This document shows positions 1,735 to 8,573 of a stretch of DNA of 11,209 nt, piece after piece. The stretch covers positions 1 through 11,209 of the forward strand of contig JAUWKY010000030.1 of NCBI GenBank assembly GCA_030613915.1, read 5' to 3'. The stretch comes from Syntrophobacterales bacterium (GTDB lineage Bacteria > Desulfobacterota > Syntrophobacteria > BM002). The notes beneath the pieces are model-generated. The model searched no databases, was not told the DNA's origin, and was given only the letters and a program-made list of their open reading frames with translations. Position 1 is the first letter of the stretch. The number at the start of each line of letters is the position of its first letter. The position numbers were made by a program, and so were the translations under genes.

Positions 1735-2010
1735 CTATTTACAATTTGACTCAGTGGGTGTCTCCCAGCGGTCAGGAGGATTGAGAAGGTATTGGCGCAT
1801 TTGGTTGGAGTCAAGTGTTTCATAGATTACACGGTGGCGGTTGAGTTCTTCTAAGGCCCTCGTTAGAGCCTCCGGACTTTCATTCCAGAATGAACCCGCC
1901 GACTCAATGGTAACCGGCGTACCGCTTTCGGCTAGGGTACAGATGAGAATGTAGGCCGAGGTAGCTCCCACAGACAAATCTAAGGCGAAAATTTTCCGAT
2001 TCATCAGCAT
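1735..2010 (-). CDS. small hypothetical protein, winged-helix-like
   Basis: I do not recognise a named family. The 91-residue product starts MLMNRK. It has a hydrophobic helix-like segment around TSAYILICTLAES, then a second helical stretch containing SPEALTRALEELNRH, then VIYETLDSNQMRQYLL. This helix, helix, strand order resembles a small winged-helix DNA-binding fold, but no catalytic or metal site is visible. The ATG at 2010 has AAGGAG 11 bases upstream, a slightly long spacing; an ATG two codons later is the alternative. The reading frame stays open as far as 2154, but that extension runs into a palindromic repeat and is unlikely to be coding. It faces thrC convergently across the tandem repeats. 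A possible role as a local regulator is inference only. Confidence 0.55.
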   Translation of the reverse strand: MLMNRKIFALDLSVGATSAYILICTLAESGTPVTIESAGSFWNESPEALTRALEELNRHRVIYETLDSNQMRQYLLNPPDRWETPTESNCK

Positions 2011-2050
2011 GAGAAAAGAATCTCCTTGTTTTCTGTCCACTGTCAAAAGC

Positions 2051-2216
2051 TGATGATCTCTTAAAAAGTCATTAATGAGACGGCACAGTAAAAAGCACCA
2101 GATGCAAGGCGCGCGAAGCTTTAGGAATGAGGCGTACTTACAGGTACGCCGCAATGACTAAAGATGAAGCGCAATCCCGCCGGGGCGGGACAGATGGACT
2201 TTTTACGAAGCCGTCA
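2051..2216. repeat. 166-bp palindromic intergenic element (MITE-like)
   Basis: The left end TGATGATCTCTTAAAAAGTC (2051-2070) matches the reverse complement of the right end (2197-2216) at 15 of 20 positions. The match includes an identical 9-base core, TAAAAAGTC. At the centre is a perfect 7-bp stem, GGCGTAC (2131-2137) and GTACGCC (2144-2150), with a 6-base loop. The arms between ends and centre also resemble each other's reverse complement imperfectly. No open frame of note or clear target-site duplication is present. The layout is that of a non-autonomous inverted-repeat element or REP-like sequence. It resembles, from memory, repeats scattered in Desulfobacterota genomes. Confidence 0.7.
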
Positions 2217-2483: not shown

Positions 2484-4796
2484 ATGAGGAATGTCTATGA
2501 TAATATCCTGCAGTTGATCGGCAACACCCCTTTGATTCTCGTCAGCCGCCTCAATCCCAATCCCAACGTTGATATTTACGCTAAGCTGGAGTCTCAAAAT
2601 CCCGGCGGTTCAGTCAAAGACCGCATTGCCCTTCAGATGATAGAGGAAGCCGAACAGCGAGGCGAACTGACTCCCGAGAAGACCATAATCGAGGCCACCA
2701 GCGGCAATACCGGCATTGGTATGGCAATGGTTGCTGCAGTGAAGGGTTATCGTATCTCTCTGGCGATGCCCGAAACCGCCAGCCAGGAGCGCCAGAAGAT
2801 ACTGAAAGCCCTGGGGGCCGAAATCCTGCTGACTTCCGGAGCTCTGGGTACGGATGGTGCTATAGAGAAGGTCTACGAATTAGTCCGTAGGTTTCCTGAT
2901 CGCTATTACATGCCTGATCAATTCAACAATGAAGACAATTGGAAAGCACATTATTATACCACCGCCCCAGAAATCTGGGAGCAAACCGAAGGCAAAGTGA
3001 CTCATGTCATAATGACTTTAGGGACAACCGGCACTGCTATCGGTGTCACCAGACGCTTGAAGGAATATGAGAAAAATGTCCGGACCATTGCCGTAGAACC
3101 CTATATGGGGCATAAAATTCAAGGTCTCAAAAATATGAAGGAGTCCTACGTGCCGGGCATATTCGACAAAGAAATCATGGATGAGATCGTCCATATCGAG
3201 GACGCGGAGGCCTTCGAGACTGCGAGGAGATTGGCTAGAGAAGAGGGTCTTTTTGTGGGAATGAGCGCAGGGGCAGCCATGGCGGCGGCGTTTCGGATAG
3301 CCAGCGATCTGACGCGAGGAACCATTGTGGCAATTCTCCCCGATGGCGGTGAACGCTATCTGAGCACTAACTTGTTTACCACCTTAATGGAACCTGATTT
3401 CCGCTTTTACAATACGTTTTCCCACCAGAAAGAAGACTTCAAACCCATCTCGGAAGGCAAGGTCTCCCTTTTTACCACCGGGCCGTCTGTGGGCGAATCC
3501 CTCGATATGACAGAGAGTCGCCGCTCTGTGGTAGCTGATCTCCTGCGGCGGTATCTGGAATACAAGGGTTTTGAGGTAAACCAGGTGGTCAATATTACCG
3601 ATATGGGGGAAAAGGCCCTACTGGACCCTGCTCGAGCCAATTCTGATCTTGACGCTAATGCCAAGAGATACATGGAGATTTGTCGCCGGGATCTGAGTGT
3701 CCTGGGAGTACAGCCGGCCACTTACTATGCGCGCACCAGCGACCATGTTGACGATATCTTGGACATCAGCAAAAGCCTGATGGAAAAGGGTTTTGCCTAC
3801 GAGAAATTGCGGTCTATTTATTTTGACATCTCAAAATTTTCGGACTACGGTAGACTATCTCGAGTGGATCTGCAGAAAATCAGACTCGGGAAGACGGTTG
3901 ATCTTGAAGCGTATGAGAAGCTGAATCCCCGGGACTTTACCTTACTCAGACGCGCCACCCTGGCAGAGTTGAAGCGTGGGATCTATCTGAAAACTTCCTG
4001 GGGAAATGTGCTGCCATCTCTACACCTTGAGACAGTAGCCTTAGCCATGAAACAGCTGGGGGAGACCATAGACATCCATGTCAGCAGCTTGGACTTTTTA
4101 TTCCCCCACAATGAAAACGAGATTGCCATTGCCCAGGCCGCGACCGGCAAACAGCTCGCAAACTACTATATCCATTGCGAACGGGTGCTGATGGACGGCA
4201 AAAAGATGTCCAGAGAGGGAGAGGGCAGGGTGACGGTGCAGCAATTGTTACATGGCGGCTACAGCGGCAGACAGATTCGCTATTGGTTGCTGGCTACCCA
4301 TTACCGCAAACCTTTGCATTCCGACGAGGATCGCTTACAGGAGGCTGCTCGGGGTTTGGAGCGGCTGGATGAATTCAGTCAGCGGCTACAACATGTGGTT
4401 ACAGGCGAGGCTGCCGAGGAGGTCGACCAGTTCGTCTATGAAGTTGAGCAGACTTTTGATCAGGCCATGGGGGACGATCTGAACGTCTCATCGGCACTGG
4501 CGGCAGTTTTCGGTTTTATCCGTAAACTCAATCCGTATCTATCTGATGGCCGTATAAGCGAAAGTCAAAAGAAAACAGCTCTTGCGGCTATGGAACGGCT
4601 TGATTCTGTATTGAATGTCTTGCAATGCCTAGAGCTTGAGCTGGATGAAGATACCTGCCGACTCCTGGAAACCAGAGCTGAAGCCAGACGCAACAAGAGT
4701 TGGGACGAGGCTGATCGGTTGCGTCAGGAACTTTTGGAGAGAGGGGTTAAGGTTGTCGATACCCCAGAAGGCACACGCTGGAAGCGTATTGAGTGA
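2484..4796 (+). CDS. cysteine synthase fused to a degenerate cysteinyl-tRNA synthetase-like domain
   Basis: The protein has 770 residues in one unbroken frame. Residues 1 to about 302 are an O-acetylserine sulfhydrylase of PLP fold type II. The IGNTPL start is at 12-17, the PLP lysine is K45 in GGSVKDR, TSGNTG is at 72-77, the phosphate loop is GTTGT at 180-184, and GERYLST closes the domain. This part should make cysteine from an activated serine and sulfide. From about residue 306 a full-length CysRS homologue follows without linker. It aligns colinearly with E. coli CysRS but lacks key parts. HIGH is replaced by DMTE (341-344), zinc ligands C28 and C209 by T332 and T517, and KMSK by KMSR (574-577). 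Zinc ligands H234 and E238 (H542, E546) and the C-terminal end (MGDDLN at 662-667, R731-D744 block) are kept. It is therefore unlikely to charge tRNA. A true CysRS should exist elsewhere. The start codon has only a weak upstream GGGA. Confidence 0.88.
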   Translation: MRNVYDNILQLIGNTPLILVSRLNPNPNVDIYAKLESQNPGGSVKDRIALQMIEEAEQRGELTPEKTIIEATSGNTGIGMAMVAAVKGYRISLAMPETASQERQKILKALGAEILLTSGALGTDGAIEKVYELVRRFPDRYYMPDQFNNEDNWKAHYYTTAPEIWEQTEGKVTHVIMTLGTTGTAIGVTRRLKEYEKNVRTIAVEPYMGHKIQGLKNMKESYVPGIFDKEIMDEIVHIEDAEAFETARRLAREEGLFVGMSAGAAMAAAFRIASDLTRGTIVAILPDGGERYLSTNLFTTLMEPDFRFYNTFSHQKEDFKPISEGKVSLFTTGPSVGESLDMTESRRSVVADLLRRYLEYKGFEVNQVVNITDMGEKALLDPARANSDLDANAKRYMEICRRDLSVLGVQPATYYARTSDHVDDILDISKSLMEKGFAYEKLRSIYFDISKFSDYGRLSRVDLQKIRLGKTVDLEAYEKLNPRDFTLLRRATLAELKRGIYLKTSWGNVLPSLHLETVALAMKQLGETIDIHVSSLDFLFPHNENEIAIAQAATGKQLANYYIHCERVLMDGKKMSREGEGRVTVQQLLHGGYSGRQIRYWLLATHYRKPLHSDEDRLQEAARGLERLDEFSQRLQHVVTGEAAEEVDQFVYEVEQTFDQAMGDDLNVSSALAAVFGFIRKLNPYLSDGRISESQKKTALAAMERLDSVLNVLQCLELELDEDTCRLLETRAEARRNKSWDEADRLRQELLERGVKVVDTPEGTRWKRIE

Positions 4797-4809: not shown

Positions 4810-5598
4810 TCACCTTCCTTCCCGTAGTTGACGTATCTCCACATCAGAGCCGTTGCTCACCACCACTATACGAATGGAAATGGAGACCTGTTTTTGCTGA
4901 CCAGGATTGGCCAATTTCTGGCTCTCCACTTGGCTTTGGTCGAGGTGGCCAATCTTGTGCAATTCCCGGAGCAGATGGGGCAAACGTTGGCCAGGAACCT
5001 GGAGCTGGAATAAACGAGCTGATTTGGCATGGGGGGAGCGGCTCGACTCTCTTTCCGGCAGCGGTGGCCTAGTAAACGAACGCAGCATTGACTGCAGTTG
5101 TTGATCTGCCCTGGAGAAGTCCTTGACCCTCAGGACCATAACTGGAACAGAGGAACCTGGAGCTCCCTTCCTTATTGTAAAGGTTTCTTGGGACGGCTCA
5201 GCAGGGCGGGTGGTAGTCGCTACATTTTTCCGGGAGCTGGGGAAAAGTGATTGCCAAGGGTACTGAGACGGCATCACCTGCCAGAGGACAACAGAGATAA
5301 GTAACAGTAAAGCTGCACCCACCCCCATGGGAAGCCAGCGGGGGAGGTTGGCAGAGAACCAAAGAGGCTGACGGAGACGACGATTTTTCAACCTTGCCAT
5401 TACCACGGCACTGAGATGTTCTGGAGGATCGAGGGTCGGCAGTTGGTGTAGGATTTCTTGGGTTTTCTGCAAGGAACTCCACTTGCGATAACAGGGCAGA
5501 CATTCTTTGAGGTGGTGCTGTAGTTTTTCGCGCTCTCTCAGCGACAGGTCGCCGTCCAGATAATCGTTGAATTGTGATTGATACTTCCCGCAGTTCAT
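4810..5598 (-). CDS. membrane-anchored zinc-finger (ZAS-type) anti-sigma factor
   Basis: Expected to hold the adjacent ECF sigma factor inactive at the inner membrane. The 262-residue protein starts with an anti-sigma zinc-finger domain: C3 upstream, then H29-x3-C33-x2-C36, the usual HxxxCxxC signature. One membrane segment lies at about 91-109 (MGVGAALLLLISVVLWQVM), so the N-terminus is predicted cytoplasmic and the remaining roughly 150 residues periplasmic. The periplasmic part has a proline/serine-rich stretch around 165-175 and a folded C-terminal part. I cannot assign that part, but it is presumably the signal sensor or protease-accessible region. The start is 3 bases after the sigma factor stop, with GAG six bases upstream, so the two genes are probably translationally coupled. 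The gene ends 13 bp from the convergent fusion gene, with no terminator visible between. Confidence 0.88.
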   Translation of the reverse strand: MNCGKYQSQFNDYLDGDLSLREREKLQHHLKECLPCYRKWSSLQKTQEILHQLPTLDPPEHLSAVVMARLKNRRLRQPLWFSANLPRWLPMGVGAALLLLISVVLWQVMPSQYPWQSLFPSSRKNVATTTRPAEPSQETFTIRKGAPGSSVPVMVLRVKDFSRADQQLQSMLRSFTRPPLPERESSRSPHAKSARLFQLQVPGQRLPHLLRELHKIGHLDQSQVESQKLANPGQQKQVSISIRIVVVSNGSDVEIRQLREGR

Positions 5599-5601
5599 TG
5601 G

Positions 5602-6225
5602 CTACTCTAGCTTTTCTGAGAGGCAGTCCCGCATAGCGGCTCTGGCTCGGTGCAGACGTGATTTCACTGTGCCTGGCCTTAAAGAGAGCATTTCACTCAA
5701 TTCGTCATAGGAAAAACCCTGTATATCCCGCAATAGCAGTATCTGTCGGGCCTGGGGTGGTATTTGGTTGAGGCATTCCTGCACTTGGGCGGCCAGGTCT
5801 TTCGCCATCGTCCATTGTTCGGGAGTAGGAGCACTATCGGCCAGTCCCTCTGGACTTTCAGACACCGTGTTTGTTCCGTAATCTGCTCTTCTCGTCTGTC
5901 TGGCAAAAAAATTTCTTCTCGACAGGTACTTGATGCGATTTCGGGCCTGATTGAGGGCGATGCGATAGAGCCAGGTTGAAAACTTGGCCTCACCCCGAAA
6001 ACTCCGTATCCCCCGGAAAGCAGCAATGAAAATATCCTGGGTTAAATCTTCAGCTTCCCCTTCACTTCCCAGCATGCGATAGGTGAAATTGTAGATTTTT
6101 TTCTCATGCAGTCGCATCAGCTGGGCAAAAGATTCCCTATCTCCTCGCCGGCAACGATCAACGAGTACCTGATCTTCATGACGTTTAACGCTTGAACTGT
6201 GTTGAGCCAACGATTTTGTACCCAT
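5602..6225 (-). CDS. ECF sigma-70 factor, RpoE-like
   Basis: This 207-residue alternative sigma factor has region 2 at about 30-100, with the typical AEDLTQDIF and FSTWLYRIALNQARNR motifs for core binding and -10 recognition. A linker follows, then region 4 at about 150-207 with a helix-turn-helix (FSYDELSEMLSLRPGTVKSR) for the -35 element. It resembles the RpoE group (ECF02). It is followed at once by its anti-sigma partner, the standard arrangement for extracytoplasmic stress response. An RpoE-type promoter sits right in front of the gene, which suggests autoregulation. No good Shine-Dalgarno sequence precedes the ATG at 6225, and the predicted transcript would start only a few bases before it. 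The inducing signal cannot be read from the sequence. Confidence 0.92.
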   Translation of the reverse strand: MGTKSLAQHSSSVKRHEDQVLVDRCRRGDRESFAQLMRLHEKKIYNFTYRMLGSEGEAEDLTQDIFIAAFRGIRSFRGEAKFSTWLYRIALNQARNRIKYLSRRNFFARQTRRADYGTNTVSESPEGLADSAPTPEQWTMAKDLAAQVQECLNQIPPQARQILLLRDIQGFSYDELSEMLSLRPGTVKSRLHRARAAMRDCLSEKLE

Positions 6226-6893: not shown

Positions 6894-7529
6894 TCAAAAG
6901 TCAGCCAGAGCTTCTCTCCCCAGCGGCTTGAGATAAGAGGTGTCATTCAGGTAGGATATGATCCATTGTCCGTTCCGGTAAACAAAAAGATTGGTGCAGG
7001 CGGTGTCCTGCTGAATACGCCAGAAGTGGCTGTTGTCCAGCCCCAGCAGGGCACAACAGATCACCTTGTTTGGCACCCGGTGCGCAACTAAAGCAAAATT
7101 CTCATCCTGATGTTTTACCAACAGGTCTTCCAGGGCAGCCATAGTACGCGATCGCACCTCATCAAGACTCTCACCTCCGGGAAATAGGACCTTGTGAGGT
7201 TCACTAAGCCAAAGGGCATGGAGTTCGGGGTATTTCTGCTGAACCTCCTGGTTGCCTAGCCCTTCCCATTCTCCGTAACTAATGTCGATTATGGCATCGA
7301 GGGGCGTTACAGAGATATCATGAAATTTAGCTATATTCTCGGCTGTCTCCATGGAGCGGGAGAGGGGGCTGCTGTAGACAGCGTGGAGGGTTTCGTCCTT
7401 GAGTGTCTCTCCAGCCAGGTGTACTTCACCTTTCCCGGTCTCATCCAAAGGGATGTCTGCCCGGCCGCGAAAGATCTCACCCACGTTCCAGGCTGTCTGG
7501 CCGTGACGCACCAGGTAGACTCTGGACAT
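6894..7529 (-). CDS. histidine phosphatase family protein (phosphoglycerate mutase-like)
   Basis: A soluble 211-residue phosphatase that works through a phosphohistidine. LVRHGQT at 6-12 carries the catalytic H9 and R8, R58 lies in SSPLSRSMETA, the acid residue is E87 or E89 in GEWEG, and the second histidine is H150 in LVAHRVPNK. Most relatives have HGG after this histidine, whereas here it is HRV, a mild oddity. The family includes cofactor-dependent phosphoglycerate mutases, CobC (alpha-ribazole phosphatase) and broad sugar phosphatases. No cobalamin genes are nearby, so the substrate is undecided. The ATG at 7529 has GGAGG eight bases upstream, inside the end of the U32 gene. Only three bases separate the two genes, so they form an operon. 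Element copy 1 lies downstream. Confidence 0.88.
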   Translation of the reverse strand: MSRVYLVRHGQTAWNVGEIFRGRADIPLDETGKGEVHLAGETLKDETLHAVYSSPLSRSMETAENIAKFHDISVTPLDAIIDISYGEWEGLGNQEVQQKYPELHALWLSEPHKVLFPGGESLDEVRSRTMAALEDLLVKHQDENFALVAHRVPNKVICCALLGLDNSHFWRIQQDTACTNLFVYRNGQWIISYLNDTSYLKPLGREALADF

Positions 7530-7532
7530 TAC

Positions 7533-8573
7533 TCAGCCCTCCATATCTGAGAGACCTTTGATGCGCTGGTGCAGTTCTCTGGTCTTTTCCTTCCTGGCTC
7601 GATCACGATCTTTGACGAGTCGTTCGAGATTCTCCTCCACCGTGATCAATTCGGGGTCAGCAGGGTTTCTCCCCTGAAGATGGGCGTCGATAAGGATTCG
7701 ATAGTCACGGATCATCTGGCCAATGAGCGCAATCGGGTACTCGCGGCCCTGGACTTTCAAGGTATGCAGGCCCAGATCAATGTAGTTCTTAAATTCCTCG
7801 CCTTGAATGGCAAAAGCTACATTGGGATTGCTGCGAATTTTTTCATTCACGGCATTGATCTCTTTGTTGCTCTTGCCTTTACGCCGCATTAGTTTCTCTC
7901 TTTGGGCTTCAGTCAGCAAGCAGAAACGGTAACAGCTCCCACTCTTGTCAGGCCAACCCTGATATTCAACGATTTCGTGGCCGTCCTCATCCGTGTAAAC
8001 CTTTTTGACATAAGAATCACTGGTTATTTCGTGGAACAGGCAGTTCCCTACACCACCGATGCAACGGTTGCCATGGATGAGTACTTCGGTTAAGACGCCA
8101 ACTTCGTCTGCCTCCTTTTTAAAGCGGTCCACCTTTTTCAGGGTGTTGATTTCAGTGGAGGCCACAACCTGAGTAGCACCAGCCTCCAGGTAGTATTCCA
8201 TTTCTTCCTTGGTACGGATATTACAGCCAACACTGGCGTGAATGGTGAGCTCAGGGTGATCGCGTTTGATCAGCCGCATCAGTTCTGGGGTTTTGGCGAT
8301 CACCCCTTCCGCACCCCATTGAGCCCACTTGGAAGCCTTGCTGAGGACGCGGAAGAATTTTTCTTCAGAAACGGCGGTGTTGATGGCTACCCTGACCTTG
8401 CCACCATAGTCGGCAGCAATATTAATTGCCTCTTGGATCTGGCTATCTTCCAATTCCCAGGCGCATTTCCTTCGGCTGAATCCCTTTGCTCCGACATAGA
8501 CAGAATCAGCACCACTGGCAAAAACCTCTGCCACCATTTCAAGGCTGCCACCTGGAGCCAGCAACTCATTCAT
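7533..8573 (-). CDS. peptidase U32 family protein, putative Fe-S RNA/cofactor hydroxylation protein
   Basis: The 346-residue protein begins [11 protein letters not shown], typical of the U32 family, and carries its signature E163...C171-x4-G-x-C178. A second pair C214-x3-C218 could complete a four-cysteine iron-sulfur site of the kind known in UbiU/UbiV. Despite the family name, characterised members (TrhP/YegQ, RlhA/YdcP, UbiU/UbiV) serve prephenate-dependent hydroxylation of tRNA, rRNA or ubiquinone precursors rather than proteolysis. Which role applies here cannot be told. The C-terminal quarter, from about residue 305, is charged and probably helical. AGGAGG sits nine bases before the ATG at 8573. 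It is the first gene of an operon with the histidine phosphatase, transcribed from a near-consensus promoter at 8704-8732. About 130 bases of leader lie between, with no structure noted. Confidence 0.88.

Follow-up and report, generated by a model that had tools for sequence, protein, structure and literature searches.

Introduction

According to the accessible part of PMC9437257, a synthetase paralogue that regulates how its own amino acid is made is already known: HisZ, a paralogue of histidyl-tRNA synthetase (HisRS) without adenylation activity, is a separate subunit of HisG and mediates its inhibition by histidine. The same part describes CysRS*, a form of cysteinyl-tRNA synthetase (CysRS) in Desulfobacterales that acts on SelC* and has no anticodon domain. 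In the available part of PMC5424206, the SepRS/SepCysS route links phosphoserine and tRNA-Cys. Here I describe a gene in which a cysteine synthase and a CysRS homologue are fused in one frame. It lies in a stretch of 11,209 nucleotides from a Syntrophobacterales bacterium (assembly GCA_030613915.1, contig JAUWKY010000030.1), hereafter the window, which a model had annotated from the sequence alone (the first-pass annotation). With about even confidence, the gene is proposed to encode a cysteine synthase that is independent of serine acetyltransferase (SAT) and has kept a pseudo-CysRS, a domain that would bind tRNA-Cys in cis and probably has a regulatory role.

How does the fusion compare with the described systems? 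By analogy, HisZ may be the closest functional precedent, since both would be dead synthetase paralogues tied to the biosynthesis of their own amino acid, as far as the accessible part of PMC9437257 goes. What seems new in this pairing, in which a pseudo-synthetase would regulate a biosynthetic enzyme, is that the two are fused in cis, whereas HisZ is a separate subunit, and that conservation falls on the tRNA-anticodon domain. Like CysRS* (same part of PMC9437257), the fusion gives bacteria of this kinship an additional protein of CysRS type, but its pattern is reversed, with the anticodon domain kept and the active site worn. It would share with SepRS/SepCysS the link between phosphoserine and tRNA-Cys only as proposed below, and it belongs to different protein families. 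Against the model of MshC, a CysRS-derived cysteine ligase, the fusion reaches 143.2 bits (cut-off 485.1), and the match to the profile ends at residue 693, short of the anticodon domain. HisRS and CysRS belong to different synthetase classes. With CysK/CysM (TIGR01136), and especially the O-phosphoserine-dependent CysM (PDB 3dki), the fusion shares the fold, the pyridoxal phosphate (PLP) lysine, the catalytic loops and a GLKNMKE motif resembling LRNMDE, but it adds a CysRS-like tail of 465 residues and has K where that CysM has R. With CysS it shares the catalytic, DALR and anticodon domains in the same order and five anticodon-domain residues, but the copy in the window lacks HIGH, the KMSKS lysine and two zinc cysteines, is fused, and belongs to a family usually found beside an ordinary CysS.

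Searches of open full texts aimed at this architecture listed no paper recognised as a description of the fusion, the accessible parts of PMC2922099, PMC5424206, PMC9437257 and PMC8762117 included; subscription papers mostly lie outside this scope. Databases already hold the fusion proteins, named cysteine synthase or cysteine--tRNA ligase. Both points agree with the first-pass annotation, which knew of no characterised example and allowed for database entries.

An uninterrupted and widespread fusion gene

As listed in Table 1, the frame runs without an internal stop and encodes 770 amino acids, in which a cysteine synthase (residues 1-300) is directly joined to a full-length CysRS homologue (306-769). 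In Pfam, PALP covers residues 8-287 (252 bits) and tRNA-synt_1e residues 319-622, followed by DALR_2 and CysS_C; in NCBIfam, the models of the two halves abut, one ending at 298 and the other starting at 307. This is the architecture that the first-pass annotation had described, a sulfhydrylase and a CysRS-like module from about residue 306 in one polypeptide with almost no linker. It had also considered that relatives might have two separate genes and that the frame might result from an error near base 3400. The source assembly is a draft genome of 351 contigs, which leaves some room for an assembly or sequencing artefact, but the probability of one is negligible, because five close relatives (94.5-98% identity) have the same uninterrupted 770-residue frame and 155 of the 395 sampled genomes of the phylum match a two-domain profile. 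The artefact was rejected, as the same frame occurs in independent assemblies that include single-contig chromosomes.

The profile matches were counted at E below 1e-240, a threshold that I set, and one genome at 6.6e-182 (G104) was set aside. Among the matches listed, two are partial (G053 ends at model position 591 and G333 at 553, out of 766), whereas G115 starts at position 28, at a contig edge. A genome with a match across both halves has one in-frame TAA (G075, C34:173076-175349). PALP and tRNA-synt_1e, the pair that the first-pass annotation suggested searching for, occur together in 117 of the 120 listed protein matches to the CysRS half; the other three (P0039, P0049 and P0111), ~510 residues long and without PALP, come from short contigs. 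The fusion is present in 37 of the 40 genomes sampled from the window's class, and none is listed for G032, G035 and G037. A one-per-species genome scan kept 78 loci, of which 39 (L039-L077) are fusions labelled Desulfobacterota/Deltaproteobacteria, Acidobacteria, Myxococcota and, in one case, Planctomycetota.

The phylogeny was inferred by FastTree from 57 standalone CysRS sequences drawn by similarity searches and 70 fused domains, of which 59 had passed a filter at 85% identity and 11 were added without re-filtering. The fused domains form one clade (support 0.909), which joins three standalone CysRS sequences from DPANN archaea and Patescibacteria (support 1.0), although nearer relatives may be missing from a set drawn in this way. 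These three sister sequences have intact motifs.

A worn catalytic site and a preserved anticodon domain

The CysRS half scores 330.6 bits over residues 307-768 against the cysS model TIGR00435, just under the cut-off of 340. The first-pass annotation had called this module complete. It is full-length, but it is not intact, and its catalytic degeneracy had gone unnoticed: HIGH is replaced by D-M-T-E, both zinc cysteines by T, and KMSKS by KMSRE. E. coli numbering, taken from the 1li5/1u0b sequence, is used below. In the two sets, 3 of the 70 fused domains keep HxG[HN], as do 56 of the 57 standalone CysRS. The second lysine of KMSKS survives in 1 fused domain, although 33 have either K or R there, versus 54 standalone ones. 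C28, C209, H234 and E238, which I take to be the zinc ligands, are all present in 41 fused domains versus 55 standalone ones, and two of the four remain in the window, whose clade is among the most worn. The set R423, R427, D436, R439 and D451, which are presumably anticodon contacts as in the E. coli complex 1u0b, is complete in all 70 fused domains versus 49 of 57 standalone ones; a literature search aimed at these contacts gave no paper that names the residues. An extra arginine just past the HIGH position (R347, numbered as in the window's fusion) is found in 68 of 70 fused domains and in none of the 57 standalone ones, and the old active-site region therefore appears to be under a constraint of its own. 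The ratio of nonsynonymous to synonymous substitution rates (dN/dS) among the window and its five close relatives is ~0.15 for the catalytic part, 0.155 for the DALR and anticodon domains, and 0.09 for the synthase half; because these values indicate purifying selection, the CysRS half is not a decaying remnant. For the motif history within the fused clade, Fitch parsimony gives one change (a regain) and Dollo parsimony ten losses, on weakly supported nodes. Taken as motif patterns, these data suggest that the CysRS half has mostly lost the aminoacylation signatures and kept the part that grips tRNA.

Is an ordinary CysRS also present? A separate CysRS, which the first-pass annotation had thought worth looking for, matches at E<=1e-110 in at least 144 of the 155 carriers. 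No fusion seen reaches this level, the best being 1.8e-102 (G043). Three other carriers (G131, G142 and G196) have another CysRS type outside the fusion (596 residues in G142 and 469 in G196), and two (G062 and G078) have pieces of a separate CysRS. None was found in G000, G044, G115, G249 and G379 (79, 79, 62, 82 and 94% complete), G115 and G379 being searched only at E<=1e-85. Fourteen genomes of other loci, of unknown completeness, were also searched (11 labelled Acidobacteria, Myxococcota, Planctomycetota or Deltaproteobacteria, and three of Desulfobacterota type); 10 have a separate CysRS, and none was found in four. In the class sample, the CysRS search of G003 (93% complete) showed the fusion only. 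The remaining phylum carrier, G007 (95% complete), has the fusion and a CysRS*-like frame of 419 residues only. The fusion is usually an addition to the ordinary CysRS, not a replacement. G196 and G142 were tried as candidates for an active replacement and rejected, each holding a separate CysRS-type frame. The fusion may have an essential role in a few lineages.

Channelling was one of the options of the first-pass annotation; in an active bifunctional enzyme, it would run between a half that makes cysteine and a half that charges tRNA-Cys. The least worn members (L144 from G043, P0078 and P0079), which keep HLGN, KMSRS and all zinc ligands, would fit such an enzyme, as would the intact sister sequences and the five phylum and four other genomes in which no separate CysRS was found, several of them incomplete or of unknown completeness. 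It is improbable for the family, however, given that 67 of 70 domains have lost the HIGH signature and 69 the second KMSKS lysine beside a separate CysRS in nearly all carriers.

Several CysRS-type proteins other than the fusion were noted. The 419-residue frame of G007 (L133, C145:8291-9175) keeps HLGH and KMSKS and has no anticodon-domain residues, like CysRS* of Desulfobacterales, and G004 has a CysRS-type frame of 425 residues (C124:5847-6734). Eleven genomes (G024, G025, G029, G031-G037 and G039) have a further CysRS-type protein (frames of 412-476 residues, 228-260 bits) that is neither the ordinary CysRS nor the fusion; one guess is that it is MshC-like. In the single-contig genome G009, the ordinary cysS is in two pieces 274 kb apart (C1:4276118 and C1:4550768), owing to an insertion, an inversion or a misassembly. 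Six genomes of one family (f64: G157, G184, G253, G294, G313 and G332) show no CysRS match at E<=1e-85 though they are 95-98% complete; a divergent standalone CysRS of 480 residues is present in G184.

Possible roles of the tail

The first-pass annotation had also raised sensing and a tRNA-linked reaction. Sensing or tRNA binding fits best, because the five anticodon-domain residues are kept throughout the fused set. One form of sensing would leave tRNA aside: as in HisZ, the old cysteine pocket would bind free cysteine and inhibit the synthase in cis. The HisZ precedent (accessible part of PMC9437257) and the 41 domains with four zinc ligands speak for it, but 29 of 70 are without the full set, the window has lost both cysteines, and the anticodon domain, useless for such a sensor, keeps its residues in all 70. 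As a general explanation, it is rather unlikely.

The tail could instead be structural, keeping the synthase near tRNA-Cys, the ordinary CysRS or the ribosome, or aiding oligomerisation, with no allostery. Purifying selection across the whole C-terminal half and the lack of a partner gene conserved family-wide are compatible with this, but the exact retention of the anticodon residues would by itself be unexplained unless tRNA is the anchor, and I give the idea little weight. Highly improbable is tRNA-dependent cysteine formation, in which the C-terminal half would present a mis-acylated tRNA-Cys (carrying Ser or phospho-Ser) to the PLP site as an independent analogue of SepRS/SepCysS. SepCysS uses PLP chemistry, and the fusion combines a PLP enzyme with anticodon-recognition residues in one chain; the zinc cysteines, which presumably select cysteine in CysRS, are lost in the window's clade. 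However, the adenylation motifs are lost as well, and the PLP half is folded like a synthase that acts on free amino acids.

The synthase half and serine acetyltransferase

The N-terminal half keeps its catalytic residues and looks active. It scores 389.6 bits with the cysKM model TIGR01136, over the cut-off of 344.15, and 388.4 bits with the CysM equivalog model, under the cut-off of 394.2. K45, S73-G77, G180, T181, G183 and T184 are invariant across the family (32-row and 95-row alignments). K45, whose role as the PLP lysine is taken from the family, sits in SVKDR and bears out the first-pass annotation, and the TSGNTG and GTTGT loops presumably have the roles assigned to these motifs. In its substrate loop, GLKNMKE can be aligned with the LRNMDE of a CysM deposited as an O-phosphoserine sulfhydrylase, and the invariant K216 occupies the position of its Arg, R220, which I take to bind the phosphate at the phosphoserine site. 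The QGLKN loop is found in 19 of 21 hand-picked standalone synthases. Standalone synthases near the half are ~61-66% identical to it; those that carry an organism name and are not marked partial number five, all archaeal (Woese-, Pace-, Nano- and Hermodarchaeota). The tree of the CysK half did not separate fused from standalone copies (support 0.31-0.53).

SAT was scored with TIGR01172 at E<=1e-34, as a family match, since just 75 of the 395 genomes pass the curated cut-off, and additional cysKM genes with TIGR01136 at E<=1e-45, with at most five candidates per genome. Among the 155 phylum carriers, 76 have SAT and an extra cysKM, two have SAT and the fusion only, five have an extra cysKM without SAT, and 72 have the fusion only without SAT; these counts are of related genomes, not independent events, and a Fisher value is not to be read as if they were. 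In the class sample (37 carriers, the same SAT rule, cysKM at E<=1e-30), the four categories number 19, 2, 0 and 16, and G000 (79% complete) shows no cysKM match other than the fusion at that threshold. SAT adjoins the extra cysK in G002, G004 and G007; therefore, the pattern amounts to one acetylserine operon having been gained or lost. Because SAT and any further CysK/M match are both missing from 72 of the 155 carriers, the synthase half is probably acetylserine-independent, and in roughly half of these phylum genomes cysteine appears to be made by the fusion alone, with no acetylserine. O-phosphoserine is the likely substrate.

A proposed mechanism

The N-terminal half would make cysteine from sulfide and an activated serine that needs no SAT, most likely O-phosphoserine. 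The C-terminal half would descend from a CysRS and, in the window as in most members, be unable to aminoacylate while still carrying the anticodon-recognition residues. Such a tRNA-Cys-binding tail would most likely regulate or localise the synthase. For example, uncharged tRNA-Cys could signal cysteine shortage and switch the synthase up; free cysteine might be sensed where the zinc pocket survives. Elsewhere, SAT is inhibited by cysteine, which provides demand control. Where SAT is missing, this feedback is missing too, so the tail could supply the control. That the synthase of a large bacterial phylum is gated in cis by the charging state of tRNA-Cys through a pseudo-synthetase, in place of SAT feedback, is a tentative idea, possible rather than probable.

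Several points weigh against the proposal of a SAT-independent synthase with a tRNA-Cys-binding pseudo-CysRS. The role of the retained residues as anticodon contacts is carried over from the E. coli complex 1u0b, and the three near-intact members may, judging from their motifs, still be active. At the phosphoserine site K stands for R, and the C. jejuni CysM uses O-acetylserine only (accessible part of PMC9855970), which suggests that the substrate is not readable from the family. SAT was scored as absent by profile search, and the genomes searched are drafts. SAT matches in 78 of the 155 phylum carriers, and the five SAT-less carriers noted above do have another cysKM match. It also matches in 10 of the 14 genomes of other loci, including most of those labelled Acidobacteria and Myxococcota; therefore, the pattern is not universal and SAT-independence is not required there.

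Gene neighbourhood

In 40 loci, many on short contigs, no operon partner is conserved across the family, and the most widely shared neighbours, in up to 11 loci, are genes of close relatives. A gene of 326-392 residues (~335) lies directly downstream of the fusion in seven Desulfobacterales-type loci, including L050:7963-8955 (+) and L074:10285-11463 (+). Neither Pfam (two copies) nor NCBIfam (one copy) gave a match for it, and it is a possible partner of the fusion in that group. At the standalone-CysRS loci, cysK beside cysS gave one match in 69 loci, L093, which was itself found as a cysK locus.

In the window, a small frame lies between the threonine synthase gene and the fusion; its copies, of 86-139 residues, have no Pfam match and are conserved in 11 of the 40 loci, all from close relatives. 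Downstream of the fusion, close relatives conserve a gene for an ECF sigma factor together with one of the zf-HC2 anti-sigma type. A histidine phosphatase gene adjoins one for a Peptidase U32-family protein, a weak relative of TrhP/UbiU that scores under their cut-offs. Nothing was found in a tRNA scan and an Rfam scan of the window.

Table 1. Features of the fusion gene and its neighbours in the window
Feature	Position	Strand	Evidence
Fusion gene, cysteine synthase + CysRS-like, 770 residues	2484..4796	+	single open frame; Pfam and NCBIfam domains; two-domain profile
Cysteine synthase half, residues 1-301, fold-type II PLP enzyme	2484..3386	+	
Presumed PLP lysine K45 in SVKDR	2616..2618	+	invariant in 32-row and 95-row family alignments
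Substrate loop QGLKNMKE, residues 213-220	3120..3143	+	phmmer alignment to 3dki/3dwg LRNMDE; K216 and N217 invariant
Junction, residues 300-306, almost no linker	3381..3401	+	NCBIfam models end at 298, start at 307
CysRS-like catalytic domain, residues 306-622	3399..4349	+	PF01406, 226 bits
T332, replacing presumed zinc ligand C28	3477..3479	+	alignments, E. coli numbering
D-M-T-E, residues 341-344, replacing HIGH	3504..3515	+	alignments
T517, replacing presumed zinc ligand C209	4032..4034	+	alignments, E. coli numbering
H542..E546, two retained equivalents of presumed zinc ligands (H234, E238)	4107..4121	+	alignment
KMSRE, residues 574-578, replacing KMSKS	4203..4217	+	alignments
DALR domain, residues 658-713	4455..4622	+	PF09190, 37.7 bits
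Anticodon-binding domain, residues 719-766, retaining R731, R735, D744, R747, D759	4638..4781	+	PF23493, 35.7 bits
Small frame between threonine synthase gene and fusion	1735-2154	-	
ECF sigma factor with zf-HC2 anti-sigma-type gene	4810-6225	-	
Histidine phosphatase	6894-7529	-	
Peptidase U32-family protein	7533-8573	-	

Significance

If the proposal of a SAT-independent synthase with a pseudo-CysRS tail is true, a widespread cis fusion that has lost its aminoacylation site to decay and keeps its anticodon reader unaltered would tie the charging of tRNA to metabolic flux in a natural way. The named species Desulforhabdus amnigena, presumably cultured, carries the fusion (P0100), and therefore it can be tested now. 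Sulfate reducers and their relatives, many of which have no SAT match, would possess an acetylserine-independent route to cysteine, and under the more tentative gating idea cysteine supply would come under direct demand control that replaces SAT feedback.
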